Source: Rhodopirellula sp. (GTDB lineage: Bacteria > Planctomycetota > Planctomycetia > Pirellulales > Pirellulaceae). From it: DNA of 64,000 nucleotides. The stretch covers positions 112,483 to 176,482 of the forward strand of contig NZHC01000045.1 in NCBI GenBank assembly GCA_002689655.1, given 5' to 3'. The notes under the pieces are model-generated. The model had not been told where the DNA came from, searched no databases, and worked only from the letters and a program-made list of their open reading frames with translations. The position numbers and the translations under genes were made by a program. Below, piece after piece: positions 2,525-44,861 of this stretch (within the stretch, counting starts at the first letter, position 1; the number at the start of each line of letters is the position of its first letter).

Positions 2525-3574
2525 ATGATCGATCCGGACATTCCCCAGCCGATTGTCCAAGCCATTGTGAACCGCTGTGGAATCACCTCCATTAAAAAAC
2601 TGAGGTCGGGTCTCAGTGGTGCCACCGTCGCTCACTGCCGCGCCGCCGACGGCCACGAATACGCACTCAAGCTTTGGCCCAACTCCTTTTCATGCAATCG
2701 TATTGAATCCATCCACCGTGTCATCCTTCACGCTTGGAAGGAAGGCTTTGAAATCATCGCGTTTCCGGTGATTTTTCAGTCGTTAGCCCACGAATCGCAA
2801 ACAGATTCATCTAACACCGTTCTCTCATCCAATGGTGAACACTGGGAACTTTCCCAGTGGCGTCCAGGTGAGCCGCTGACCACCACCGCCGCTCTGGACA
2901 ACATCCGTCGGGGTGCTGAGGCCATCTCGCGATTCCATGCTTGCACCGCTGCCCTGAAAACAATTCACCAACCGCCTCCCATCATCGAGGAACGCCTGCG
3001 AACGCTCGCCTCAAGAAGGCAGTATTTCCCGGTCCTGATTCAGTCAATCAACCGGACTGATCTGCCATTAGACGTCACTGCTGCCCTGCGAGACGCTGCG
3101 AATCTATTGCACTGGAAATGGGATGAAGCCTGTGCGCAAATACACCGATCATTAACAGAGCACGGAGTTTGCAACCTTGCCACCCAGTACATATTGCGCG
3201 ATGTCCATGCTGAGCACCTTCTGTTCTCATCAGGAAAGCCAACTGGTTTGATTGATTTTGATGCTGTCCGCATTGACACACCAGCCGCCGATCTGGCCCG
3301 CTGGGCAGGTAGTTTCCTGGCGGGTCAGCACTCAGCGGACGACGTGTGGGAAGCCGTTTTTGCTGGGTATCGCGAAAATATGAAACAACCTGATGAGACC
3401 TATGCGGCACAAACAGTCAAACTGGCGTCTGACCTCTGTTTTGCGGGCATCTGGCTCAGTCTGGCAAACTGGTTGGTGTGGCTGTTGGTCGAACGACGGG
3501 ACTTCGACGCCCCGCCCGAGATCCTTGCTGGGCGAATTTACAATCTGATCCGGGCGGCTACGCCTCGCAGCTGA
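2525..3574 (+). CDS. APH/choline-kinase-like phosphotransferase
   Basis: The 349-residue protein has the fold signature of the aminoglycoside phosphotransferase/choline kinase family: an N-terminal ATP-binding lobe (RSGLSGATVAHCRAADG, then YALKLWP with the likely ATP-binding Lys) and the catalytic loop LRDVHAEHLLF followed by LIDFDAVRIDTPAADLAR, which supplies the catalytic Asp and the metal-binding Asp. Such kinases phosphorylate a small molecule hydroxyl using ATP; the substrate cannot be told from the sequence and antibiotic resistance should not be assumed. I chose the ATG at 2525 because the residues before it are not family-like, though a GTG at 2480 is in frame. The next gene, DsbD, starts 85 bases later. 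Confidence 0.75.
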   Translation: MIDPDIPQPIVQAIVNRCGITSIKKLRSGLSGATVAHCRAADGHEYALKLWPNSFSCNRIESIHRVILHAWKEGFEIIAFPVIFQSLAHESQTDSSNTVLSSNGEHWELSQWRPGEPLTTTAALDNIRRGAEAISRFHACTAALKTIHQPPPIIEERLRTLASRRQYFPVLIQSINRTDLPLDVTAALRDAANLLHWKWDEACAQIHRSLTEHGVCNLATQYILRDVHAEHLLFSSGKPTGLIDFDAVRIDTPAADLARWAGSFLAGQHSADDVWEAVFAGYRENMKQPDETYAAQTVKLASDLCFAGIWLSLANWLVWLLVERRDFDAPPEILAGRIYNLIRAATPRS

Positions 3575-3659
3575 CAATTGACTGAATATTGACCCGGAAT
3601 TCCTGCAAGGCATAGAATACAAGCTAGACGATTACCACTGTGAAAACGAGCGAAACTGA

Positions 3660-6224
3660 ATGACCTCTTCCATGCAACGCTGGATTTCAAGTCCCACACG
3701 CTGGCTACCCATGCTTGCCCTGCTGGGATGCTGCTGGCTCGCTCCTGCCCAGTCGCAAGACAGCTTTGGCGGGGGAGCTGATCTGTTCCCTGATTTTTCG
3801 CTCGGTGGGTTTGGTGATGAAAATGGGGAACCGGTCGAATGGCGGGCCACCTACCAGATCAATGACAGTGGCAAAGGCAAGCTGGAAGTTACTGCGACCT
3901 TGGGTAGTGGTTGGCACATTTACTCCATGACGCAGCCTGCTGGTGGTCCAACCCCCACCACCTTGTCATTGCAGTCTCCACCTGAGATTAAGCTAACAGG
4001 AAAATTCACCCCGGACCGCAAACCACACAGCAGTGTTTCGTCTGTCTACAAGGGCCTAACCGTCGAAGAGTTCGAATCCAGCGTGACATGGTCGGCAACG
4101 ATTCAGGCACCCGCGGGATTTGAAGGAAAAATCTCAGTTCAAGTCGCTGGTCTGGTCTGCAAAGAAGCCTGCGTTCCCGTCGGTGAAACACTCGAGGCCA
4201 CTCCAGTCAGCAACGCTGATGCTGATGCCGAGTCAAGCCAACTGACATCAGAACTGGATACAGAATCAACACTTTTCCGCGAAGTTGCCAAGCCATTCCG
4301 TGACGGTGACTATGCCGTGGAATGGACCGCCTACGTGTTCCCGGCGACCGTCAAGGCAGGTCAGTGGGGCGAATTGATTTTCACAGCTACTCCCGATGCG
4401 ACCTATCACGTTTATGAAACAGCTATAGATGATTCAGACCTTTCTACCAATTTTGTCGTCACAGCAAAATCTGGCATCGAGGTTGGAAAACCGGTTGCAG
4501 ACCTTCCCGTGACGCAAAAGCAAGGTGTGCTGCCCTACGGCTACTTCAAAGGAAAAGTGACCTGGCGGCTTCCGTTCATGGTTCCGACCACAACGAAACC
4601 CGGTAGTAAAACAATCGAAGGGATGATCGCTTATCAAGCCTGCACTGACGGCAGTTGTCTTCAGCCACAAGCACTCAAATTCAAAGCGTCATTGGCTGTC
4701 GCTGAATCGACCATCGAAAGCCCTGCAGCGATCATGCTCACCTCGGGCAGGTCCAACGACGCCAAGGATGCTGCGGCTGAAACAAAGTGGGTCGATCCGA
4801 TCACAAAACCAGCTGATGTCCCCCAGTCACCCGCAGCAGATGACATTACATCGACTGACACAAACGTACTCCCGTCACCCGGGCCTGGAGAAAAAACAGA
4901 AACCAATGCAAAAACCGATCTCGCCGACGCAGACACGGCAGCAACAAATGACGCGCAGGCTGGTTCAAGCACGGCCTTCCCGCTGATTCTCGTCTTTGCA
5001 TTCATTGGAGGATTGATTCTGAATGTGATGCCATGTGTTCTTCCCGTAGTCGGCCTCAAAATCATGGGGTTCGTCAGCCAAGCCGGAGAAGACCGCAAAC
5101 GAATCCTGACACTCAATGTGGCATACGTAGCAGGCATCATGGCAGTGTTTGCACTTTTAGCTGTCGTTGCAGCGGTGACAAAATTTGGCTGGGGTGAACA
5201 GTTCACCTACTTCCCCGTCCGACTAGGTTTGACACTTGCACTATTCGCTCTCGCACTGAGCTATTTGGATGTATGGGAGATTCCGGTTCCTGGCATGGCC
5301 GCGGGCAAAGCCTCACAGGACCTGCAAAATCGCGAGGGTTTTTTCGGCGCGTTCTCAAAAGGCGTCTTTGCCACGATCATGGCAACGCCATGCAGTGGTC
5401 CATTGCTCGGATTCATCCTCGGGCTAACACTGAACCTTGCGCCTGCCCAGACAATCGCCATTTTCTTAACCGTGGGACTGGGGATGTCATCTCCTTACCT
5501 GCTGATCGGATTCCGGCCAAAGTTAATCGCATGGCTACCCAAGCCTGGGGACTGGATGGTAACGCTTAAGCAACTGATGGCATTTCTATTTCTGGGAACA
5601 GTTGCTTTCTTCTTCTCTCAATTCAATGACACGCAAAAAGTTCCCGTATTCGTATCACTGATCGCCGTTTGGTTCGGGTGCTGGATCATCGGAAAAGTCC
5701 CGAACTACGCGGACTTGGGAAAACGCGTCTCCGCATGGCTCGGTGGTATTGCCGCCGCGGCCGCCCTCAGCTTCGGAGCGTTTCATTTCCTTGAACAAGT
5801 GAAAGAGCTGGACTGGAAGGACTACAACGAAGCTCAATTACAGCAACTGCGTAACGAAGGCAAGACGGTGATGGTCGACTTTGGTGCGAAGTGGTGCGTC
5901 AACTGCATTGTCAATTACGAGGTTGCGTTGAACACCGCGACGACCCGAGAAGTAATGGACGAATTGGGAGCTGTCGCAATGTACGCGGACTGGACCGATC
6001 CCGACGAGAAGATTAAGCAGAAGCTCAGCGAATTGGATTCCCGCTCTATTCCCTTGCTGGTCATCTACCCAGGAGACCGAAGCAAAGCCCCCATCATCAT
6101 GCGTGACCTGGTGACTCAACAGGCAGTGGTCGATGCCCTCAGGCAGGCAGGTGCCAGTGTCAGCAGTTCTTCACTTTCGTTTTCGGCTCGTGATCAAAAC
6201 GTCGCCACGATCGCTCCACAGTGA
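3660..6224 (+). CDS. dsbD: Thiol:disulfide interchange protein DsbD-like
   Basis: DsbD moves electrons from cytoplasmic thioredoxin across the inner membrane to periplasmic thiol proteins and cytochrome c maturation. The 854-residue product has a signal peptide (MLALLGCCWLAPAQS), then two copies of the DsbD N-terminal beta-domain (about residues 55-175 and 210-345), a low-complexity linker, and an eight-helix CcdA-like core. The redox Cys of the core are visible in MPCVLPVV (C459) and ATPCSGPLL (C578). A C-terminal thioredoxin domain has WCVNC (C746/C749). Two N-terminal domains instead of one is longer than the E. coli layout of ~565 residues. MnmE follows after 28 bases, so they may be cotranscribed. 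The multihaem cytochrome at 18.5-20.8 kb is one possible reason a cell needs this pathway. Confidence 0.92.
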   Translation: MTSSMQRWISSPTRWLPMLALLGCCWLAPAQSQDSFGGGADLFPDFSLGGFGDENGEPVEWRATYQINDSGKGKLEVTATLGSGWHIYSMTQPAGGPTPTTLSLQSPPEIKLTGKFTPDRKPHSSVSSVYKGLTVEEFESSVTWSATIQAPAGFEGKISVQVAGLVCKEACVPVGETLEATPVSNADADAESSQLTSELDTESTLFREVAKPFRDGDYAVEWTAYVFPATVKAGQWGELIFTATPDATYHVYETAIDDSDLSTNFVVTAKSGIEVGKPVADLPVTQKQGVLPYGYFKGKVTWRLPFMVPTTTKPGSKTIEGMIAYQACTDGSCLQPQALKFKASLAVAESTIESPAAIMLTSGRSNDAKDAAAETKWVDPITKPADVPQSPAADDITSTDTNVLPSPGPGEKTETNAKTDLADADTAATNDAQAGSSTAFPLILVFAFIGGLILNVMPCVLPVVGLKIMGFVSQAGEDRKRILTLNVAYVAGIMAVFALLAVVAAVTKFGWGEQFTYFPVRLGLTLALFALALSYLDVWEIPVPGMAAGKASQDLQNREGFFGAFSKGVFATIMATPCSGPLLGFILGLTLNLAPAQTIAIFLTVGLGMSSPYLLIGFRPKLIAWLPKPGDWMVTLKQLMAFLFLGTVAFFFSQFNDTQKVPVFVSLIAVWFGCWIIGKVPNYADLGKRVSAWLGGIAAAAALSFGAFHFLEQVKELDWKDYNEAQLQQLRNEGKTVMVDFGAKWCVNCIVNYEVALNTATTREVMDELGAVAMYADWTDPDEKIKQKLSELDSRSIPLLVIYPGDRSKAPIIMRDLVTQQAVVDALRQAGASVSSSSLSFSARDQNVATIAPQ

Positions 6225-6252
6225 TTCGGAACTCTACACGGATCCAGCGAAG

Positions 6253-7635
6253 ATGACCCTGCTTGAAGTCGATGATACGATCGTCGCGATTGCCTCTCCG
6301 ACATCACCTGCACCCCGTGGTGTTGTTCGAATGTCTGGCGATGAAACATTGGCCATCCTCCAACAGATGGGCATTCACTGCGAACAAACCAGCAGGGCTC
6401 GGCGGCTGGCTACCCATATTGATGTTGGCACCCCTCTAGGAACGATTCCAGTTGAAGTGATGGTTTGGCCCACCCATCGCAGTTACACCGGACAACCCTC
6501 AGCAGAACTGCACACTTACGGTTCACTGCCGCTACTACGTGCATTAGTTGACAAAGCAGGCCGCTGTGGTGCACGGGCAGCGCGACCAGGTGAATACACG
6601 ATGCGAGCCTTTCTGGCCGGCCGCCTCGACTTGACGCAAGCCGAAGCGGTACTGGGCGTCATCGAAGCAGAACAACGCGGTACGCTCGATCACGCGTTGA
6701 GACAACTCAGTGGCAATCTATCTCAACCTCTGGAACGAATGCGAAGCACGCTGCTGGACCTACTTGCTGATGTCGAAGCAGGACTCGACTTTGTAGATGA
6801 AGATATCTCATTTATCAGTGACCAGGATCTTATCGATCGCCTTTCCGCCATTGCAATTGAGCTTGAGCAAACGCTTCGATTGATGCAGAACCGCGGCGGG
6901 GGATCAGCTCGTATTACCGTAGCACTGTGCGGACCTCCCAATGCAGGCAAGAGCTGTTTAATCAACCGACTGGCGGACCAGCAAGTAGCGATCGTAGCAC
7001 CTGTGGCTGGCACAACACGTGACACTGTAACCGTTGACATCGAGTTACAGGGCAATCATCTGACGCTCATTGACACAGCAGGTATCGAAGAGGCAGAAAC
7101 GGAAGTCTCACTACAGTCGCAAGCTCAAGCACAACGTTCCACCAGTGAATCTCGTGTACGACTGTGGTGTGTCGATTCAACCAGCGACGACTTCGCGGCG
7201 AAAGCGAATGAACTGCAAGAACTGGCAAACCGGACGCGAAGACCGCAAACCATTGATCTCTGGATCGCTACCAAAACAGATGCGGCCATACAATCTACCT
7301 CGACTGCCAGCACCGAGGCCTCCTGGATTCCGTGCAGTGCGCTCAATGGTGACGGAATTGAGCGTCTCAAGATATCAATCTGTGAGACTCTGAAGCAGCA
7401 CGATACGGAAGAGATTGGTTCGGTCGTTGGCACTGCTGCCCGCTGCAGCCAGTCACTTCACCAAGCAATCGCTGCCATTCAGCAGGCAATCCACTTGACC
7501 GGCCATCAGGAAGGACACGAATTTGTATCCGCTGAATTGCGTACCGTCGCCCAGTGTCTTGGGGAAGTGACAGGGACTGTTTACACCGACGACATTCTGG
7601 ATCGGGTTTTTGGCCGTTTTTGCATCGGCAAGTAA
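6253..7635 (+). CDS. mnmE: tRNA modification GTPase MnmE
   Basis: MnmE with MnmG installs the (carboxymethyl)aminomethyl group on wobble U34 of certain tRNAs. The 460-residue protein shows the N-terminal THF-binding domain (DTIVAIASPTSPAPRGVVRMSG), the RPGEYTMRAFLAGRLDL helix, a G domain with P-loop GPPNAGKS (227-234), GTTRD switch, DTAG and TKTD, and the C-terminal FCIGK with the conserved Cys. The frame is open upstream to 6133 inside dsbD, but family alignment starts at the ATG at 6253, giving a normal length. It lies between dsbD and the alkyl-transferase with short gaps on both sides, which suggests one transcript. Confidence 0.96.
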   Translation: MTLLEVDDTIVAIASPTSPAPRGVVRMSGDETLAILQQMGIHCEQTSRARRLATHIDVGTPLGTIPVEVMVWPTHRSYTGQPSAELHTYGSLPLLRALVDKAGRCGARAARPGEYTMRAFLAGRLDLTQAEAVLGVIEAEQRGTLDHALRQLSGNLSQPLERMRSTLLDLLADVEAGLDFVDEDISFISDQDLIDRLSAIAIELEQTLRLMQNRGGGSARITVALCGPPNAGKSCLINRLADQQVAIVAPVAGTTRDTVTVDIELQGNHLTLIDTAGIEEAETEVSLQSQAQAQRSTSESRVRLWCVDSTSDDFAAKANELQELANRTRRPQTIDLWIATKTDAAIQSTSTASTEASWIPCSALNGDGIERLKISICETLKQHDTEEIGSVVGTAARCSQSLHQAIAAIQQAIHLTGHQEGHEFVSAELRTVAQCLGEVTGTVYTDDILDRVFGRFCIGK

Positions 7636-34976: not shown

Positions 34977-35981
34977 ATGCAGACACGACTTCTAGGCACC
35001 ACCGACCTGAACCTCAGCGTCGTTGGCTTGGGGACTTGGGCGATTGGTGGCGGCGATTGGGCATTCGGCTGGGGCGATCAGGATGATGACCAAGCAATCG
35101 CTGCGATCAAGCGAGCTGTGGATGTGGGCGTCAATTGGATTGATACTGCTGCCGTTTATGGACTCGGAAAAAGCGAGACTTTGGTGGGCAGAGCTGTTGC
35201 AGAGCTTCCGGCTGGGGACCGGCCTTTGATCGCGACCAAGTGCGGTCGGACGAACGCAGGAAATGGGCAGATTGGAAAATCACTACAACGTGAAAGCGTC
35301 CTCGCAGAGTGTGAAGCCAGTTTGAAACGATTACAGGTCGATTGCATCGACCTTTACCAAATGCACTGGCCACAGCCGGACGAAGAAATCGAGGAGGGTT
35401 GGGAGACACTCGTCGATCTAAAAAAACAAGGCAAGGTTCGGCACATTGGTGTTTCGAACCACGATGTATCCCAGCTGCAACGATTGCAGAGCATTCACCC
35501 TGTCGCTTCACTACAACCGCCTTACAGCATGATTTCAGCTGAGGTAGAAACTGAGATCATGCCTTTTTGCGGAAAAAACAACATTGGTGTGGTCTGCTAC
35601 AGCCCGATGGGTAAAGGCCTGCTGACAGGTACCTTCAATGCCGAACGAGCGCGTGACCTATCCGAAAAAGATCACCGCAGTCGTGACCCGAGGTTCCAGT
35701 CTCCCCAGCTGGAAATCAATCTTGAGTTCGTGACAGGCCTGCATGAAACAGCTACAAAACTTGGCTGGACTGTAGCAGAGCTTGCCATTGCGTGGGTCTT
35801 ACGACGCCCTGAAGTCACCAGTGCAATTGTTGGGGCTCGTTGCCCCGAACAAATTGAACAAACAGCGATCGCTGGCACCCGAGTCATACCTGATGATGCC
35901 ACGGACGAAGTACAAAGATTACTCAAACAACGCAATGAGGCCCTTACTTCGCTGGACGGCATCGAACAGGCACGAGTGTGA
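34977..35981 (+). CDS. Aldo/keto reductase
   Basis: A 334-residue NAD(P)H-dependent oxidoreductase with a TIM-barrel fold. The catalytic tetrad is visible: Asp in WIDTAAVYG, Tyr in the same motif, Lys in LIATKCGR and His in LYQMHWPQP. The C-terminal cofactor site shows SAIVGARCPEQIEQ. It belongs to the sugar/xylose-reductase-like group often used on aldehydes or keto sugars, with unknown substrate here. Its stop codon overlaps the GTG start of the transporter gene by four bases (GTGA), so it is translationally coupled to the TctA/TctCB transporter, and the substrate of one may be the product of the other. Confidence 0.9.
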   Translation: MQTRLLGTTDLNLSVVGLGTWAIGGGDWAFGWGDQDDDQAIAAIKRAVDVGVNWIDTAAVYGLGKSETLVGRAVAELPAGDRPLIATKCGRTNAGNGQIGKSLQRESVLAECEASLKRLQVDCIDLYQMHWPQPDEEIEEGWETLVDLKKQGKVRHIGVSNHDVSQLQRLQSIHPVASLQPPYSMISAEVETEIMPFCGKNNIGVVCYSPMGKGLLTGTFNAERARDLSEKDHRSRDPRFQSPQLEINLEFVTGLHETATKLGWTVAELAIAWVLRRPEVTSAIVGARCPEQIEQTAIAGTRVIPDDATDEVQRLLKQRNEALTSLDGIEQARV

Positions 35982-37513
35982 TCAATTCCCTCAATCTGCT
36001 AGCAGCTCTACCAGGCCTTGAGACAGCGTTTCAGACCCTCAGCAGCCCTGCAGGACTCGCTGTTGTAATTGTCGGCACGGCATTGGGAATCTTTGTCGGT
36101 GCAGTCCCTGGTTTAACAGGCACGATGTTGATCGCGTTGGTTCTGCCATTGACGTACGGTGCCGACCCACTGCTGTCGATGGCATTTCTGATCAGTATTT
36201 ATGTGGGTGCGGTCAGTGGTGGAATGATCACCGCGACGCTGCTGAGAATGCCAGGTACCCCTGCATCGATCATCACCACGCTGGACGGCTACCCGATGGC
36301 CCAACAGGGCAAACCCGGGCGTGCTCTAGGACTGGGTGTCATGGCATCGCTGGCAGGGGGCATGATTTCATGGGTGTTCCTCGTGCTACTTACCAGCCCG
36401 ATTGCCAAACTCTCATCCAAGTTCGGCTTCTTTGAATATTTTTCGCTGGTGATGATGGCTTTAGTTCTCATTGCGACCATCGGTGGTAAGTCACTCTCCA
36501 AATCACTGTTGTCCGGCTTTCTCGGAATCTTCTTGGCAATGCCAGGCATTAATCCTGCAACCGGCCAAGCTCGGCTAACGTTCGGAGTCACCGAATTGAA
36601 CGATGGTTTTCAGTTGCTGCCTGTCTTGATCGGCTTGTTCGCAGTCAATCAGATTCTACGCGACATCACGAACATCGAGCAAAAATCAAAACCGATTGAG
36701 CTTGGCAAGGAAAGTGTTTTCCTGAAAGCATCGGACTTTATCAAACACGGAATCAACTTAATTCGTTCTTCTGTGATCGGGACATGGATCGGTATCCTAC
36801 CTGGGATTGGGGCCAACATTGGATCGGTCACGGCCTACAGCGTTTCCAAAAGTCTTTCCAAGACACCCGAAGAGTACGGCACGGGTCACGAAGACGGTGT
36901 GGTCGCATCCGAGGCGGCCAACAACGCGACCATTGGCGGCGCACTCATTCCGCTGATTGCCATGGGCCTGCCGGGCAGTGTGGTCGAAGCAGTCCTCTTG
37001 GGTGCATTGGTCATTCACGGTTTGCAGCCCGGACCACGCCTGTTCAGCGAGAGTCCAGAAATGGTTTACACCATCATGGGCGCCATGCTGATCGCCAACA
37101 TTGCCATGGCCGCGACAATGATATTTTCGATGCGTCTATTGGCAAAAGTGGTCCATGTCCCTCGCCCCTATCTACTTCCCGTCATTCTCTGCTTTTGCGT
37201 GATCGGTTCGTTCGCATTGTCAAATCGATTATTTGATGTCTGGGTCATGCTTGGGTTTGGCGTACTGGGTTTCTTTCTCGAGTCAGTCAAAATCCCGTTA
37301 GCACCGTTCATCATTGGATTTGTACTTGGCCCAATCGCGGAGGAAAATCTCAGCCTTGGACTGCAAGCATCCAATGGTAGTTTTTGGCCAATTGTGACCC
37401 AACCACTTTCGCTGGTTTTCATCTTGATTGCCCTCGCAATGTTGCTGGTGCCGCACCTGAAAACGAAATTTGGCTCAGTGCCAACTGGATCATCACAGGA
37501 GCCAATGAAATGA
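35978..37513 (+). CDS. tctA: Tripartite tricarboxylate transporter large permease
   Basis: TctA forms the main channel of tripartite tricarboxylate (TTT) transporters for carboxylates such as citrate, taken up with a cation gradient. The 511-residue protein has ~11 helices and the two family repeats, visible as VGAVPGLTGTMLIALVLPLTY with GMITATLLRMPGTPASI near the N-terminus and IGTWIGILPGIGANIGSVTAY with GALIPLIAMGLPGS in the middle. It starts at GTG 35978 and its stop overlaps the next start (ATGA at 37510). TctA needs a TctB partner and a periplasmic binding protein; both are supplied by the next gene as one chain. Confidence 0.93.
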   Translation: MINSLNLLAALPGLETAFQTLSSPAGLAVVIVGTALGIFVGAVPGLTGTMLIALVLPLTYGADPLLSMAFLISIYVGAVSGGMITATLLRMPGTPASIITTLDGYPMAQQGKPGRALGLGVMASLAGGMISWVFLVLLTSPIAKLSSKFGFFEYFSLVMMALVLIATIGGKSLSKSLLSGFLGIFLAMPGINPATGQARLTFGVTELNDGFQLLPVLIGLFAVNQILRDITNIEQKSKPIELGKESVFLKASDFIKHGINLIRSSVIGTWIGILPGIGANIGSVTAYSVSKSLSKTPEEYGTGHEDGVVASEAANNATIGGALIPLIAMGLPGSVVEAVLLGALVIHGLQPGPRLFSESPEMVYTIMGAMLIANIAMAATMIFSMRLLAKVVHVPRPYLLPVILCFCVIGSFALSNRLFDVWVMLGFGVLGFFLESVKIPLAPFIIGFVLGPIAEENLSLGLQASNGSFWPIVTQPLSLVFILIALAMLLVPHLKTKFGSVPTGSSQEPMK

Positions 37514-38877
37514 AAATGCCAACGCTCCTCTGGCACTCAGGTTCAGTGATAGCCATCGCTGCGTTGATTGGCTGGCAAGTCCTCCGTGCCACCTCGCAAT
37601 CAGCAGAAAATGGATACCCCGAACGTCCGATCCATATCGTGGTTCCTTACGATGCTGGTGGTGGCAGCGATACGTTTGTCCGAATCCTGCAGAAAGGAAT
37701 CTCCGAGGATCAGCTTCTGGATCAACCGCTAGTCATCATCAACCAAGCGGGAGGCAGCGGAACCATTGGCAGTCGCGAAGTAAAGAATGCTGATCCAGAT
37801 GGCTACAAAATCCTCTGCCACCACAACGCAATCATCACGGCAAAGCTGGCAGAAACAGTTGATTACGGCCCAGAAGCATTTGAACCGATCGCCATGACAG
37901 GTGAAATGTCGATGGTCATCCTGGTTCGAGACGATTCACCGATCAGGAACATCGTCGATCTTCTGCAGACAGCTAAAGACAAACCGAGCACGATTCGTTT
38001 TGGAGCGAATAAAGGAGCGCCTGCTTACTTCACCACTCTACAATTGCAAAAAGCGTTACCGGGCGCAGAACTCAGCATCGTGTCGGCAGGTGGCGGAGCA
38101 GACCGTTACAGTAAAATCCTTGGTGGTCACCTTGAAGCCGGTATTTTCTCTCTTTCGGAATACCTCGATTTCCGCGGCATCGAAGGCACACCTGCTGATG
38201 AAAACATTCGCGCCATTGCCCTGCTGAGTAATGAACGCCACGAGTCGATTCCAGATGTGCCTACAACCGTTGAGCTGAAAATTCCGGTAGTGCTCACCAA
38301 CGCCAACTACTGGTGGGCCCCTAAAGAAACACCACCAGAGATAATCGACTTCTGGGCCAATGTACTCGCCAAAGCAATGCAAAACGAAACCGTGCTAGCG
38401 GAACTTGCTCGGCTACGCATGGACCCGAGCTACGAAAGAGACTCAGCACTGCAAGCACGACTGGCCGACACCATCAAACAATTCAATTTGGTAGCAGAGC
38501 AAGAACAGTCATGGCTACCAAACTTCACCGTTTATGTAGGCATCCTGCTGGCGATCTTGATGGCATGGGCCATTTTGGAAGCAATCCTGCGGAAAAATGG
38601 TGGTGAGCAAGCTGCTGCTCCTCTTATGTCGGAGCCGTTTCGAAAACGTCCGGACATTGCCCTCGCTTGCTTTGCCTTGCTGTGTGGATATGTGCTATTG
38701 CTTTCCACTGGATGGTTGCCGTTTGCAATCGCTTCAGCGGCCATGGTGGCATTGATTGGTGGTCAAATGATGCGGGGTGCTCCGGCACGGTGGCTTGTCC
38801 TGCTGGAACTCGCGGTCCTGACGGGGCTCGGAAGCCAGTTTATCTTCACCGAGGTCTTTGTTACCCCTTTGCCGTGA
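37510..38877 (+). CDS. TctC-TctB fusion: tethered substrate-binding protein and small permease
   Basis: The 455-residue protein starts with a helix (8-27), followed by a TctC-type solute-binding domain (YPERPIHIVVPYDAGGGSD at 36-54; VIINQAGGSGTIGS at 75-88; about 300 residues in all). From residue ~338 it continues with four helices, 338-360, 381-400, 402-421 and 427-448, the last three matching the small TctB subunit. In ordinary TTT systems TctC is a free periplasmic protein and TctB a separate gene; here one chain joins them, which would hold the receptor at the membrane beside TctA. The start lies in the ATGA overlap with tctA. The substrate is not predictable from the sequence. Confidence 0.85.
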   Translation: MKMPTLLWHSGSVIAIAALIGWQVLRATSQSAENGYPERPIHIVVPYDAGGGSDTFVRILQKGISEDQLLDQPLVIINQAGGSGTIGSREVKNADPDGYKILCHHNAIITAKLAETVDYGPEAFEPIAMTGEMSMVILVRDDSPIRNIVDLLQTAKDKPSTIRFGANKGAPAYFTTLQLQKALPGAELSIVSAGGGADRYSKILGGHLEAGIFSLSEYLDFRGIEGTPADENIRAIALLSNERHESIPDVPTTVELKIPVVLTNANYWWAPKETPPEIIDFWANVLAKAMQNETVLAELARLRMDPSYERDSALQARLADTIKQFNLVAEQEQSWLPNFTVYVGILLAILMAWAILEAILRKNGGEQAAAPLMSEPFRKRPDIALACFALLCGYVLLLSTGWLPFAIASAAMVALIGGQMMRGAPARWLVLLELAVLTGLGSQFIFTEVFVTPLP

Positions 38878-38939: not shown

Positions 38940-40091
38940 TCAGCCCACCAGCAAAGCTTCGATTTCACCGCGGGGGACCACATTCATGACAAGGGGTTGC
39001 GAACCGTCATCCTGTGACTGCTGCCAAGTCACGATGTAATTGTCGGCAGTTGTTAGTACATCGACATAACGACTGCATCCAGTCCCATGAGGGCTGACAA
39101 ACATGGGATGGTTCACTGACAAACGCTGCACCGTACGCAAGTCACCATTTCGACAATAGGCAACACCGCCCAATTCTTCACAGGAGTAACCACGGGGGCG
39201 TTTCACAGCCGTGGCATGTTGATCTAGATTACGAACACATTCGCCACCATCATAGAAAAACAGCTGCACTTCCTGATCTGCCAAAACACCAACGCGAGGT
39301 AAACTGACCAGAGCAGTTCCCCGAGTCATCGCCACATCCCATGTGAAACCACGGGGAAAAAAAGTCAGGTTCGCATGCTCCACACTTAATGCGCGATCAC
39401 CCAAGACTACGTAACCCGTATTCGAACTGGTCCAACAAAACGGATGAGTACAAAAAAGGAGACAATCCGCACCTTCATGCGATCCCACAAACGGATCTTT
39501 GATGTGCAGGAATCGTGGATCATCAGTTTCAAGAACCGTTTCCGCCGCGGCGGTGGAAAGCTGTGTGATGGAATCAGCAGTCAAGCGATCAATCGTCCAG
39601 ACTCCAGTTCCCGGTTTCAGATGTGAACTGAATTCTTCTGGATAACCAATCCCCTGCTTCTCGGTGGAAACAAATAGTTCGACACAATCGTTGACGAACC
39701 GCAACGCGGAACCCTCAATCGACAAGACTTCCCGTCTCCCAACATTCAAATCAGCTTTTGAAAAAGATAACGAGTGCTGGAACGTCTGGGCATTGTCATC
39801 AGAGCGAAAAATTGCAAGTTCCAGTCCACGTTCACCTGCTCCTAAACCAGTTCGCGAGTCCCCCTGGTTACGAAACCGACCGGTCAGCCAAAGCGTTCCT
39901 TCCTGATCTTGCACCATGTTGCCGCCACCAAACCAATGTCCCGTGCCTGATCGCTGGGGAGGAACAATGACTTGTGCCTGGTCCTGGTCCATCAATCTTG
40001 AGGCAACTGCCTTCAGTCGGGTTGTAATATCCAAATTCAAAACCTGCGGAAACGGAAAACTAAAAATGGGGGTGCCACTGCTTCGCGACAA
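38940..40091 (-). CDS. Sialidase-like beta-propeller protein
   Basis: The 383-residue protein looks like the exo-alpha-sialidase / GH-type propeller proteins common in planctomycetes: repeated strands with SGTGHWFGGGNMV, GTLWLTGRFRN, LELAIFRSDDNAQTFQ and ILHI/LHIKDPFV-like turns where Asp-box motifs would sit. I see no clean SxDxGxTW box, except a relaxed SDDNAQTF, and the arginine triad cannot be assigned, so catalytic activity is uncertain. There is no signal peptide, so it would act in the cytoplasm unless the start is misplaced; an ATG at 39992 (MDQDQAQVIV) is an alternative. It is convergent with the transporter operon, ending 62 bases from it. Confidence 0.65.
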   Translation of the reverse strand: MSRSSGTPIFSFPFPQVLNLDITTRLKAVASRLMDQDQAQVIVPPQRSGTGHWFGGGNMVQDQEGTLWLTGRFRNQGDSRTGLGAGERGLELAIFRSDDNAQTFQHSLSFSKADLNVGRREVLSIEGSALRFVNDCVELFVSTEKQGIGYPEEFSSHLKPGTGVWTIDRLTADSITQLSTAAAETVLETDDPRFLHIKDPFVGSHEGADCLLFCTHPFCWTSSNTGYVVLGDRALSVEHANLTFFPRGFTWDVAMTRGTALVSLPRVGVLADQEVQLFFYDGGECVRNLDQHATAVKRPRGYSCEELGGVAYCRNGDLRTVQRLSVNHPMFVSPHGTGCSRYVDVLTTADNYIVTWQQSQDDGSQPLVMNVVPRGEIEALLVG

Positions 40092-42572: not shown

Positions 42573-44861
42573 GTGGACGGTTGGCAAATTATCCTCACGG
42601 TTTTGGTCGTTGGTCTTGTGGCACTGGGCTTGATGTTGCTAATCGCGCCCCGATTTACCATTCGATTACCTTTCGCAGTACTGCTTTCGCTGCTGTACCG
42701 AAAACAGGTCGTCGGACTCGAAAACATTCCCAACGACCAGGGATGTGTGGTGGTTAGCAATCACGTTTCATGGATCGACGGAGTGCTGTTGTTGTGGATA
42801 TTACCACGCAACATCCGCTTCGTAGTTGACGGAGGAAACTTCACGAATCCACTTCTCAAGGGATTGGCAAGCCGGTTTGGCACCATTTTGATGGCAGCCA
42901 ATCCCAAGTCGATAGGACGAGCCTTGAAGGAGGGCAGAGAGGGCGTGAAAGCAGGGGACCTGATCGGTATTTTCCCAGAAGGCACCCTGACGCGAACTGG
43001 GCAACTGCAAACTTTCAAGCCTGGCTACCAAAAAATACTCAAAGGGACGGATGGCTGCATCCTACCCATCTACATGGAAGGAATGTGGGGCAGCATTTTC
43101 AGCCATTCAGGTGGCAAACTGTTCTTCAAATGGCCTGACAAATTCCGCAGACGACTTACGCTCCACATCGGCAAGCCACTTACTGCCGAAACACCACTTT
43201 CGCATGTTCGTTCAAGTGTCTTGGCACTGGGTGCTGCGGCAACGATTGATAATCGCCAGGAGTTCCCGATCCTTGCCAAACGCATCATCCGAGTTTGGAG
43301 AAAGCGATGGAAGTCACTACAAGCAGCAGACTCATTGGGTCAGCAAGCGAGCGGACGATCAATGCTGTTACGAGTCTTCGCACTAAGACGCGTCTTGCGG
43401 CGGGAAGTCTTTGCAAAAGATGAGCAATTTGTCGGTGTGCTATTACCGCCAAGTGTTGGTGGTGTTGCAGTGAATGTCGCTCTGGCCATGGATCGCAGAG
43501 TTGCAGCAAACCTGAATTACACTGTAAGCAGCGATGTGGTGAATCACTGCATAAAGGACGTGGGCATCAAACATGTTCTCTCCACTGAGAAATTCATCAG
43601 CAAGACAGGATTGGAAGTTGACGCTGACATGGTGATGCTGGATACCCTGCGGGATAAAGTCACTGTTGTCGACAAGACGATTGCATTCATACAAGCCTAT
43701 TTGATCCCAGCCGTATTACTTGACCTTCTATTAGGACTGAACAAGATAAAAGCAGATGACTTGCTAACGGTCATCTTCACAAGTGGCTCAACGGGGATGC
43801 CCAAGGGTGTTCTACTGAGCAATGCCAACATCAGTCACAATGTGGATGCGATTGATCGCGCGGTGCGGTTGAATAACAAGGACACTGTTCTTGGCATTCT
43901 TCCATTCTTTCACTCCTTTGGTTACTCAGTGACCTTATGGGCAGTTCAAACTCTGGGCCCCTGCGCTGTTTACCACTTCAATCCTCTCGACGCGAAGCAG
44001 GTTGGAAAGCTGTCGGAAAAATTTGGAGTGACCGTTCTGCTGGGCACTCCGACATTTCTGCGTGGCTACCTGCGACGAGTCAAACCCGAACAGTTTTCAA
44101 AACTCGATGTAGTCGTTGTTGGTGCTGAAAAAATGCCAGGTGAGCTATTCGGAGCCTTTGAAGAGAAATTTGGGGTACGACCCGTTGAAGGCTATGGGGC
44201 AACAGAGTTAAGCCCCTTGGTATCCGTGAATATTCCCCCGTCACGATCGCCTGCAAAGTTCCAGCCCGATCGGGTCGAAGGATCAGTGGGACGTCCCCTG
44301 CCGGGAGTCTCAGCGCGAGTGGTCACTCCTGACACCGATCATGAACTCGACACGAACGAAGATGGCATGTTGCTCATTTCGGGTCCCAATGTGATGAAAG
44401 GCTATGCCAATCGTGAGGACCTGACCAAGGAAACGATCAACAATGGGTGGTATGTCACCGGTGACATCGCCCACATTGATCAGCAGGGCTTCATTCACAT
44501 CACAGGACGCCTCAGTCGATTCTCCAAAATCGGAGGTGAAATGGTGCCCCATGTACGTGTCGAGGAAGAATTGGGAAAATCATTCTGCGAAGGTGAGGAT
44601 GATGAACAAGTTCGCTTGTGCGTGACAGCTGTGCCGGATGCTAAAAAGGGTGAGCGGCTGATTGTCCTTCATCTGAAAACGGAGAAAGACATCACAGAGA
44701 TTCGAAAATCACTTAGCGATGCCGGTCTGCCCAACCTGTTTATTCCGGCTCAAGACAGTTTCATTGAAATTGAGGAAATCCCGATGCTTGGAACTGGAAA
44801 ACTTGATCTCAAAGGTGCAAAACAGATGGCTGCAGACCTGGTTGCAGCGGGAACTTCATGA
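42573..44861 (+). CDS. Bifunctional acyltransferase / acyl-ligase (Aas-like)
   Basis: The 762-residue protein begins with a membrane helix and a PlsC-type acyltransferase: NHVSWID (the HX4D catalytic pair), then FPEGTLTRTG. From residue ~300 it continues with an acyl-AMP ligase: P-loop TVIFTSGSTGMPKGV, GYGATELSPL, GWYVTGDIAHIDQQGFIHITGR and the C-terminal GTGKLDLKGAK with the catalytic Lys. This order is that of E. coli Aas, which re-acylates lysophospholipids using free fatty acid and ACP, but without the transporter module found in some relatives. It starts at GTG 42573. Its stop overlaps the next start by four bases (ATGA). Confidence 0.9.
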   Translation: MDGWQIILTVLVVGLVALGLMLLIAPRFTIRLPFAVLLSLLYRKQVVGLENIPNDQGCVVVSNHVSWIDGVLLLWILPRNIRFVVDGGNFTNPLLKGLASRFGTILMAANPKSIGRALKEGREGVKAGDLIGIFPEGTLTRTGQLQTFKPGYQKILKGTDGCILPIYMEGMWGSIFSHSGGKLFFKWPDKFRRRLTLHIGKPLTAETPLSHVRSSVLALGAAATIDNRQEFPILAKRIIRVWRKRWKSLQAADSLGQQASGRSMLLRVFALRRVLRREVFAKDEQFVGVLLPPSVGGVAVNVALAMDRRVAANLNYTVSSDVVNHCIKDVGIKHVLSTEKFISKTGLEVDADMVMLDTLRDKVTVVDKTIAFIQAYLIPAVLLDLLLGLNKIKADDLLTVIFTSGSTGMPKGVLLSNANISHNVDAIDRAVRLNNKDTVLGILPFFHSFGYSVTLWAVQTLGPCAVYHFNPLDAKQVGKLSEKFGVTVLLGTPTFLRGYLRRVKPEQFSKLDVVVVGAEKMPGELFGAFEEKFGVRPVEGYGATELSPLVSVNIPPSRSPAKFQPDRVEGSVGRPLPGVSARVVTPDTDHELDTNEDGMLLISGPNVMKGYANREDLTKETINNGWYVTGDIAHIDQQGFIHITGRLSRFSKIGGEMVPHVRVEEELGKSFCEGEDDEQVRLCVTAVPDAKKGERLIVLHLKTEKDITEIRKSLSDAGLPNLFIPAQDSFIEIEEIPMLGTGKLDLKGAKQMAADLVAAGTS

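Follow-up and report, generated by a model that had tools for sequence, protein, structure and literature searches.

A 64,000-nucleotide stretch of the planctomycete Rhodopirellula sp. (GenBank assembly GCA_002689655.1, contig NZHC01000045.1, positions 112,483 to 176,482 of the forward strand; hereafter the window) carries a gene in which a TctC-type solute-binding receptor and the small subunit TctB of a tripartite tricarboxylate transporter (TTT) are encoded as one chain, next to the gene for the large permease subunit TctA. An earlier note made from the letters of this DNA had proposed such a fusion, and the fusion is real, since both Pfam domains were detected above cut-off in one frame of 455 aa. 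Based on sequence and structure prediction, TctA and the TctC-TctB protein probably form a captive-receptor secondary importer of the TTT type, with two polypeptides in place of three. The note had treated a single protein; the fusion itself holds, but the architecture turned out to be clade-wide and to include more extreme forms, namely a one-chain form with the permease in the same polypeptide and a one-helix form in which a single hydrophobic segment follows the receptor.

Domain organization of the TctC-TctB fusion

The frame at 37510-38877 (+) is open without a stop for all 455 aa and was divided into the following parts, for which an AlphaFold2 (AF2) model and Pfam were used; the numbering of the TctB transmembrane helices (TM1-TM5) is that of this analysis.

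37510..38877, +, tctC-tctB fusion gene; ATG start, PF03401 and PF07331 in a single frame
37522..37596, +, N-terminal helix, residues 5-29 (AF2); no Cys; probably an uncleaved signal anchor
37630..38487, +, TctC receptor domain, residues 41-326, predicted periplasmic (AF2 match to solved TctC/Bug proteins; phmmer)
38488..38523, +, joint, residues 327-338; Leu336-Pro337 nearly invariant, at the membrane edge
38524..38598, +, TctB TM2, residues 339-363, predicted to run from outside to inside (AF2; loop charges)
38599..38649, +, predicted cytoplasmic loop, residues 364-380, Lys/Arg rich (the aligned loop 361-380 averages 2.97 K+R in 59 fused proteins)
38650..38856, +, TctB TM3-TM5, helices 381-400, 405-421 and 425-449 (AF2; Pfam TctB to the profile end)

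Pfam revealed TctC (PF03401) at residues 57-325 (E 5.2e-29) and TctB (PF07331) at residues 340-455, which correspond to positions 33-137 of the 137 in the profile (35.4 bits, E 1.5e-8; curated cut-off 29.1 bits), while no NCBIfam family matched either the fusion protein or TctA at E <= 1. The AF2 model (mean predicted local distance difference test score (pLDDT) 83.2, predicted template modelling score (pTM) 0.64) displayed helices at 5-29, 339-363, 381-400, 405-421 and 425-449 around the TctC domain. Its receptor part gave the best structural match to 4x9t among solved TctC/Bug proteins (E 1.0e-22), and phmmer of the fusion against solved TctC/Bug chains reached a best E of 1.2e-27. The four helices after the receptor had been counted correctly in the earlier note, but not only the last three are TctB-like; according to Pfam and AF2, all four represent TM2-TM5, and it is the first helix of TctB that is missing. 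The protein therefore departs from the soluble-receptor pattern of the TctC family by its four predicted membrane helices after the receptor, and from a complete TctB by the absence of TM1, with a match starting only at profile position 33.

Comparison with relatives supported this organization. A match to the fusion protein was found in 29 of 60 genomes searched (own genome included); in 20 of them, again including the own genome, it ran from residue 34 or before to residue 452 or beyond with no internal stop, the 19 out of 59 other relatives doing so at 24-91% identity. In an alignment of 20 full-span proteins, identity to the window protein was 34-80%, and a metagenome-assembled genome bearing the name Rubripirellula has a contig with a match at 70% identity. 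A frame error at 38520-38560, which had been named as a possible source of the fusion, is excluded by the unbroken match across both domains in these 19 relatives. Nothing but the general risk speaks for a faulty frame, a misassembly or a pseudogene, and the chance of any of them appears negligible given the same 19 proteins and a search with a profile of the clade-I fusions (clades as defined below), in which 11 of 294 Planctomycetota genomes (own included) matched from position 2-13 to 448 with at least 605 bits and no stop, the profile including proteins from several of these 11 genomes. Family searches of the own genome (7.09 Mb, 99.95% complete) resulted in one match each for TctC, TctB and TctA, all at this locus; a second tctB or tctC gene was not found in them, which bears out the earlier observation that the operon has no separate copies.

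Loss of TM1 and the joint between receptor and TctB

TctB matches started at profile positions 17-32 in fused forms, but at positions 2-5 in stand-alone ones (best match of each of 10 genomes). Based on this shift, TM1 is lost systematically in fused forms, and the receptor occupies the place of TM1 and its loop. Each of the eight stand-alone TctB proteins inspected possesses a first hydrophobic segment and, behind a loop that usually contains a GP..FP-like motif, another three or four. In fused proteins, the receptor is followed by at most four such segments. Furthermore, 21 unfused receptors in 20 regions fetched from outside the Planctomycetes-Verrucomicrobia-Chlamydiae (PVC) group end 35-43 aa past the TctC domain, about where TM2 starts in the fusion, so that hardly any linker was added. 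In the sequence, the junction lies close to the natural C-terminus of the receptor and leads into TM2 at its predicted periplasmic end.

Membrane topology

Among the 59 fused proteins, which are not independent of each other, the mean number of Lys plus Arg (K+R) was 2.97 in loop 2-3 and 2.08 in loop 4-5, compared to 0.05 in loop 3-4, 0.39 in the C-terminal tail and 0.63 after the N-terminal helix. Since loops 2-3 and 4-5 are thus the K+R-rich ones, as in a positive-inside pattern, we infer that the receptor and the C-terminus lie outside in the periplasm and the N-terminus inside. A WH pair marks the start of the N-terminal helix in the window protein and in eight of eleven same-genus loci of its type, and in 8/8 one-chain proteins the same pair precedes the helix linking TctA to TctC. 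As the one-chain form cannot lose this helix unless its chain is cut, the window protein probably retains helix 5-29 as an anchor. The one-chain form also has a K/R-rich stretch after the last TctA helix, which places the start of its TctA-TctC helix inside.

Distribution of the fusion

In a sample of 392 Planctomycetota genomes, 31 carried TctB over the cut-off, 23 of them in the fused form and 10 as a stand-alone protein, with two genomes harboring both; TctC and TctB lay in one open reading frame (ORF) in 23/23 genomes with the fused form. Hence, the same fusion, which the earlier note had suggested searching for in planctomycetes, recurs in 23 of the 31 TctB-positive genomes. A Verrucomicrobiota sample of 288 genomes, including one genome of the Lentisphaeraceae (G451), contained seven with TctB over the cut-off, four of which carry confirmed fusions (G447, G451, G666 and G678; loci L121, L122, L204, L205 and L206), and a scan of named genomes added four further Verrucomicrobiota fusion loci (L123, L124, L126 and L127). 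One more candidate of this phylum, L203, was rejected as a fusion and is a separate TctB with an insert; this stand-alone TctB (L203:388-1719, +) harbors a long low-complexity Gly/Pro-rich repeat. Where the flanks are long enough, tctA almost always accompanies the fusion; one exception is L092.

Searches of other phyla with the clade-I profile did not reveal both domains in one frame. This holds for Pseudomonadota (299 genomes, 112 matching) among the matches listed, with the best five candidates per genome at most being scored, for Bacillota (149 genomes, 46 matching; best 11 at most scored in each), and for Spirochaetota (100 genomes, 16 matching). Twenty of the long-frame regions among these matches (7 Bacillota, 13 Pseudomonadota) contained unfused receptors only. 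Because clade-II fusions score weakly with this profile, these searches could miss a fusion of that kind in a long frame outside those checked. The apparent long frame L208 was rejected as a TctC-TctB fusion outside Planctomycetota, as it consists of three separate genes. Of 72,556 plasmid records, 832 matched and none covered 80% of the protein in one place.

Phylogeny and origin of the tethered receptors

In the receptor tree (74 rows), the tethered proteins fell into two groups, clade I (38 rows; Shimodaira-Hasegawa-like approximate likelihood ratio test (SH-aLRT) 85), to which the one-chain and one-helix proteins belong, and clade II (16 rows; SH-aLRT 98), the nearest kin of which are unfused planctomycete receptors (SH-aLRT 99). 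The permease tree (68 rows) agreed, with support of 99 for clade I, 100 for clade II and 100 for clade II together with its unfused sisters. A single origin, i.e., a grouping of all permeases linked to tethered receptors, was rejected by the permease tree in the approximately unbiased (AU) test (p 7e-46; 50 versus 18 rows). It was not rejected by the receptor tree (p 0.094), from which seven long rows had been dropped, keeping 67 of the 74. Two origins are therefore suggested mainly by the TctA tree; alternatively, an existing fusion may have been transferred and paired with a different tctA. The unfused forms bearing TM1 are unlikely to be reversals, because TM1 would not come back if a fused gene were split.

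Both trees nest the one-helix form within clade I, with moderate support, which suggests that it arose by reduction from an ancestor with the fusion. Altogether, one could tentatively picture a PVC class of TTT rebuilt round a captive receptor, although we would not call it probable: at least two joinings would have swapped the receptor for TM1, the permease would have been added in one genus, and TctB would have been pared to one helix in Verrucomicrobiota. A main job of TctB would then be to keep the receptor at TctA or to help it dock there, with TM2 as the only part indispensable for this.

One-chain and one-helix forms

Eight genomes, all from the genus coded g47, contain a single ORF of 972-973 aa with the order TctA-TctC-TctB part; six of the eight assemblies consist of a single contig. 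In five Verrucomicrobiota loci, a receptor followed by a single hydrophobic segment was found, with tctA directly downstream. The loci of both forms are:

L064:1811-4729, -, one-chain ORF, TctA-TctC-TctB
L065:2068-4989, -, one-chain ORF, TctA-TctC-TctB
L066-L071, further one-chain ORFs, TctA-TctC-TctB
L129:6468-7571, one-helix receptor, Verrucomicrobiota
L132:3-1070, one-helix receptor, Verrucomicrobiota
L133:4765-5820, one-helix receptor, Verrucomicrobiota
L134:2661-3716, one-helix receptor, Verrucomicrobiota
L135:3960-5030, one-helix receptor, Verrucomicrobiota

Two of the one-chain proteins were scanned with Pfam, which confirmed TctA and TctC and did not list TctB at E <= 0.01. The TctB part of the eight frames scored 28.8-34.4 bits in the genome search, and E 2e-35 to 8e-38 with a profile built here that includes such proteins. 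TctB was not found in the locus at any of the five one-helix loci, and G450, the sole one-helix genome searched (its completeness is not given), had no TctB over the cut-off and only a match of 22.6 bits. This suggests that the tether is the element kept in the one-helix clade, the rest of TctB being gone.

Proposed mechanism and its alternatives

In the importer that we propose, helix 5-29 would cross the membrane outward from an inside N-terminus, the receptor would stand in the periplasm and TM2-TM5 would span the membrane, binding TctA like an ordinary TctB and so keeping the receptor beside the permease. Having closed on an organic anion in the periplasm, the receptor would dock on TctA, with its reach set by the joint of about 12 residues, and would open and hand over the anion, which TctA would then drive inward with an ion gradient. 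It is reasonable to assume, as the earlier note did, that tethering would make a fixed local receptor; docking would effectively be intramolecular, with a fixed 1:1 ratio and a high local receptor concentration. The cost would be that the permease is no longer shared among several receptors. Such sharing may occur in bacteria with many orphan receptors; for Rhodoplanes, 434 TTT receptor genes are given (PMC5994714).

Several observations weigh against this proposal. The placement of the receptor relative to the helices is of low confidence (pTM 0.64; pLDDT < 50 at 29-33, 333-337 and 364-377), and the AF2 models cover the fusion and TctA each on its own. The WH pair is absent in 3/11 same-genus loci of the window's type, and helix 5-29 may be cleaved by signal peptidase I. 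The TctA model resembles elevator transporters only weakly, with VIA Z of 5.5-8.2 to DASS and TRAP chains (mostly over residues 22-378) and of 10.3 to a YS1 transporter, and with no Foldseek match at E <= 0.001; the permease would be ion driven and perhaps of the elevator type. In addition, the neighboring genes described below (reductase, sulfatase, lactonase-like) vary between sublineages and fix no substrate.

Alternatively, the fusion could be made as one chain and then cut in the periplasm, which would release free TctC and a TM1-less TctB for a normal TTT. Residues 333-337 of low pLDDT would indeed be exposed, and a protease is possible, but the joint Leu-Pro is nearly invariant and hardly any spacer was added. 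Moreover, the single helix of the one-helix clade would be pointless after cutting, and the one-chain form holds the receptor at both ends, so that we regard a cut chain as improbable. Even less credit is due to a ligand sensor or regulator that has the TTT fold and does not import. Binding-protein domains fused to membrane segments occur in sensors, too, and the own genome has a single TTT; yet the gene overlaps tctA by 4 bp, tctA accompanies nearly all well-flanked fusions, the permease is part of the same chain in eight genomes, and Pfam detected no output domain in the window protein.

More weight, though still on the unlikely side, can be given to the idea that the tether chiefly answers an enlarged periplasm, keeping the receptor near the permease with TctB as a convenient anchor. 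Planctomycete periplasms are large, and an anchor is present in the one-helix form, although its loci yielded no TctB. Furthermore, a Cys ends the N-terminal hydrophobic stretch in 18/18 fused receptors of clade II when read by eye, 14/18 of which also passed the lipobox pattern. Outside this clade, few proteins passed (clade I 12/33, one-chain form 0/8, one-helix form 0/5, unfused planctomycete receptors 3/11), compared to a background of 14/107 unfused receptors from mostly proteobacterial loci, for which a similar pattern was applied to L137-L199 with five non-proteobacterial loci left out. The pattern over-calls where the Cys lies inside a helix (L086, L087 and L096) and under-calls elsewhere (L073 and L131), so that the support comes from the by-eye reading of clade II. 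What speaks against a pure anchor, apart from the few passes in other groups and those passes that are a Cys inside a helix, is that in the fused proteins TctB extends to the end of its profile, more than an anchor would require. A lipobox-like Cys was also seen in the unfused planctomycete receptors nearest to clade II (L036/L118, L037 and L041; L036/L118 by eye only). This suggests that lipid anchoring preceded fusion in the clade-II line. Taken together, we favor a captive receptor that would be held at TctA by TM2-TM5.

Gene neighborhood and putative substrate

Upstream of the fusion gene, two further genes belong to the apparent operon:

34977..35981, +, gene for an aldo-keto reductase, at the start of the apparent operon; PF00248, E 1.3e-78
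35978..37513, +, tctA permease gene; GTG start, 511 aa; Pfam PF01970 (TctA), E 3.5e-145

Reading of the sequence confirmed the compact operon and the 4-bp overlaps described before, GTGA at 35978-35981 between reductase gene and tctA, and ATGA at 37510-37513 between tctA and the fusion gene. The partner in the window's lineage is the aldo-keto reductase, and in four loci a gene of the Amidohydro_2 family (lactonase-like). A reductase homolog shares the strand of tctA in seven further clade-I loci; in L098, it follows tctA at a distance of about 1 kb instead of preceding it. A sulfatase gene adjoins tctA in many clade-I loci (L064:305-1702 (-), L072, L073, L074, L090, L091, L128, L134 and L135). 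Read by eye, the L064 sulfatase has a start without an apparent signal peptide and a CTPSR motif; the nearest NCBIfam models for the sulfatase were arylsulfatase and choline-sulfatase, both below their cut-offs. Neighbor families fam1, fam2, fam3, fam5, fam7 and fam13 were ignored, as they look like ORFs in other frames over tctA, the fusion or the sulfatase gene. Our guess at the substrate would be an organic, perhaps sulfated or sugar-derived, acid, for which the sulfatase is the lead. L089 departs from the usual gene order, with tctA and the sulfatase gene on one strand and the fusion gene on the other (2721-4247 (+); 5743-7110 (-)).

Apart from that, a convergent gene (window 38940-40091, -; 383 aa) without a Pfam match follows the fusion gene, and relatives of this gene lie beside the fusion in another six loci from the window's lineage. 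Further downstream, an ORF of 762 aa (window 42573-44861, +) reads by eye as an acyltransferase joined to an AMP-dependent ligase. Promoter- and terminator-like sites occurred in numbers near chance, and no Rfam match at the gathering threshold was found within the window.

Comparison with known transport systems

With the TTT family (TC 2.A.80, TctABC), the window system has in common homologs of TctA, of TctB (TM2-TM5) and of TctC in a compact cluster; it differs in having two polypeptides instead of three, a covalent receptor and a TctB without TM1. Judged by its sequence, we file it as a variant that would work like a TTT and not as a standard TTT, as a TctA-family permease and a TctC-family receptor are present, but not three separate polypeptides with a free receptor. 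ABC importers with fused binding domains (OpuA type) likewise have a covalent receptor at the translocator, but they are ATP driven and their membrane proteins are unrelated.

In the accessible part of Rosa et al. 2018 (PMC5812351), which gives TctB four to five helices with the N-terminus inside and states its function as unknown, a fusion is described only for TctA with TctB, in Paraburkholderia caribensis; according to another article, no TctB has been characterized from any TTT (PMC13390454). A description of a TctC-TctB fusion was not found in searches of the open PubMed Central (PMC) literature, with subscription journals outside this scope and protein databases possibly listing the domain combination, so that we claim it as new only relative to the open PMC literature searched. 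Such natural fusions would fix the stoichiometry, the topology and the site at which receptor and small subunit meet. Part swaps among the separate, fused, one-chain and one-helix forms make the role of TctB testable, and the one-chain form is an attractive structural target for a whole receptor-dependent secondary transporter.

The TAXI-GltS fusions of Jaques et al. 2025 (PMC12344293) are alike in that a binding protein is joined to its secondary transporter, but they involve another receptor family (TAXI) and another transporter (GltS), and no TctB-like subunit is described in the part of the article at hand. Lipid-anchored TAXI receptors of TRAP transporters (Roden et al. 2023, as cited in PMC11574862), the likely effect of which is a higher local concentration, resemble the present case in that a secondary transporter has its receptor kept at the membrane. 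They have a lipid anchor without fusion to a permease subunit, whereas the clade-II relatives of this study seem to have both a lipobox and the fusion.

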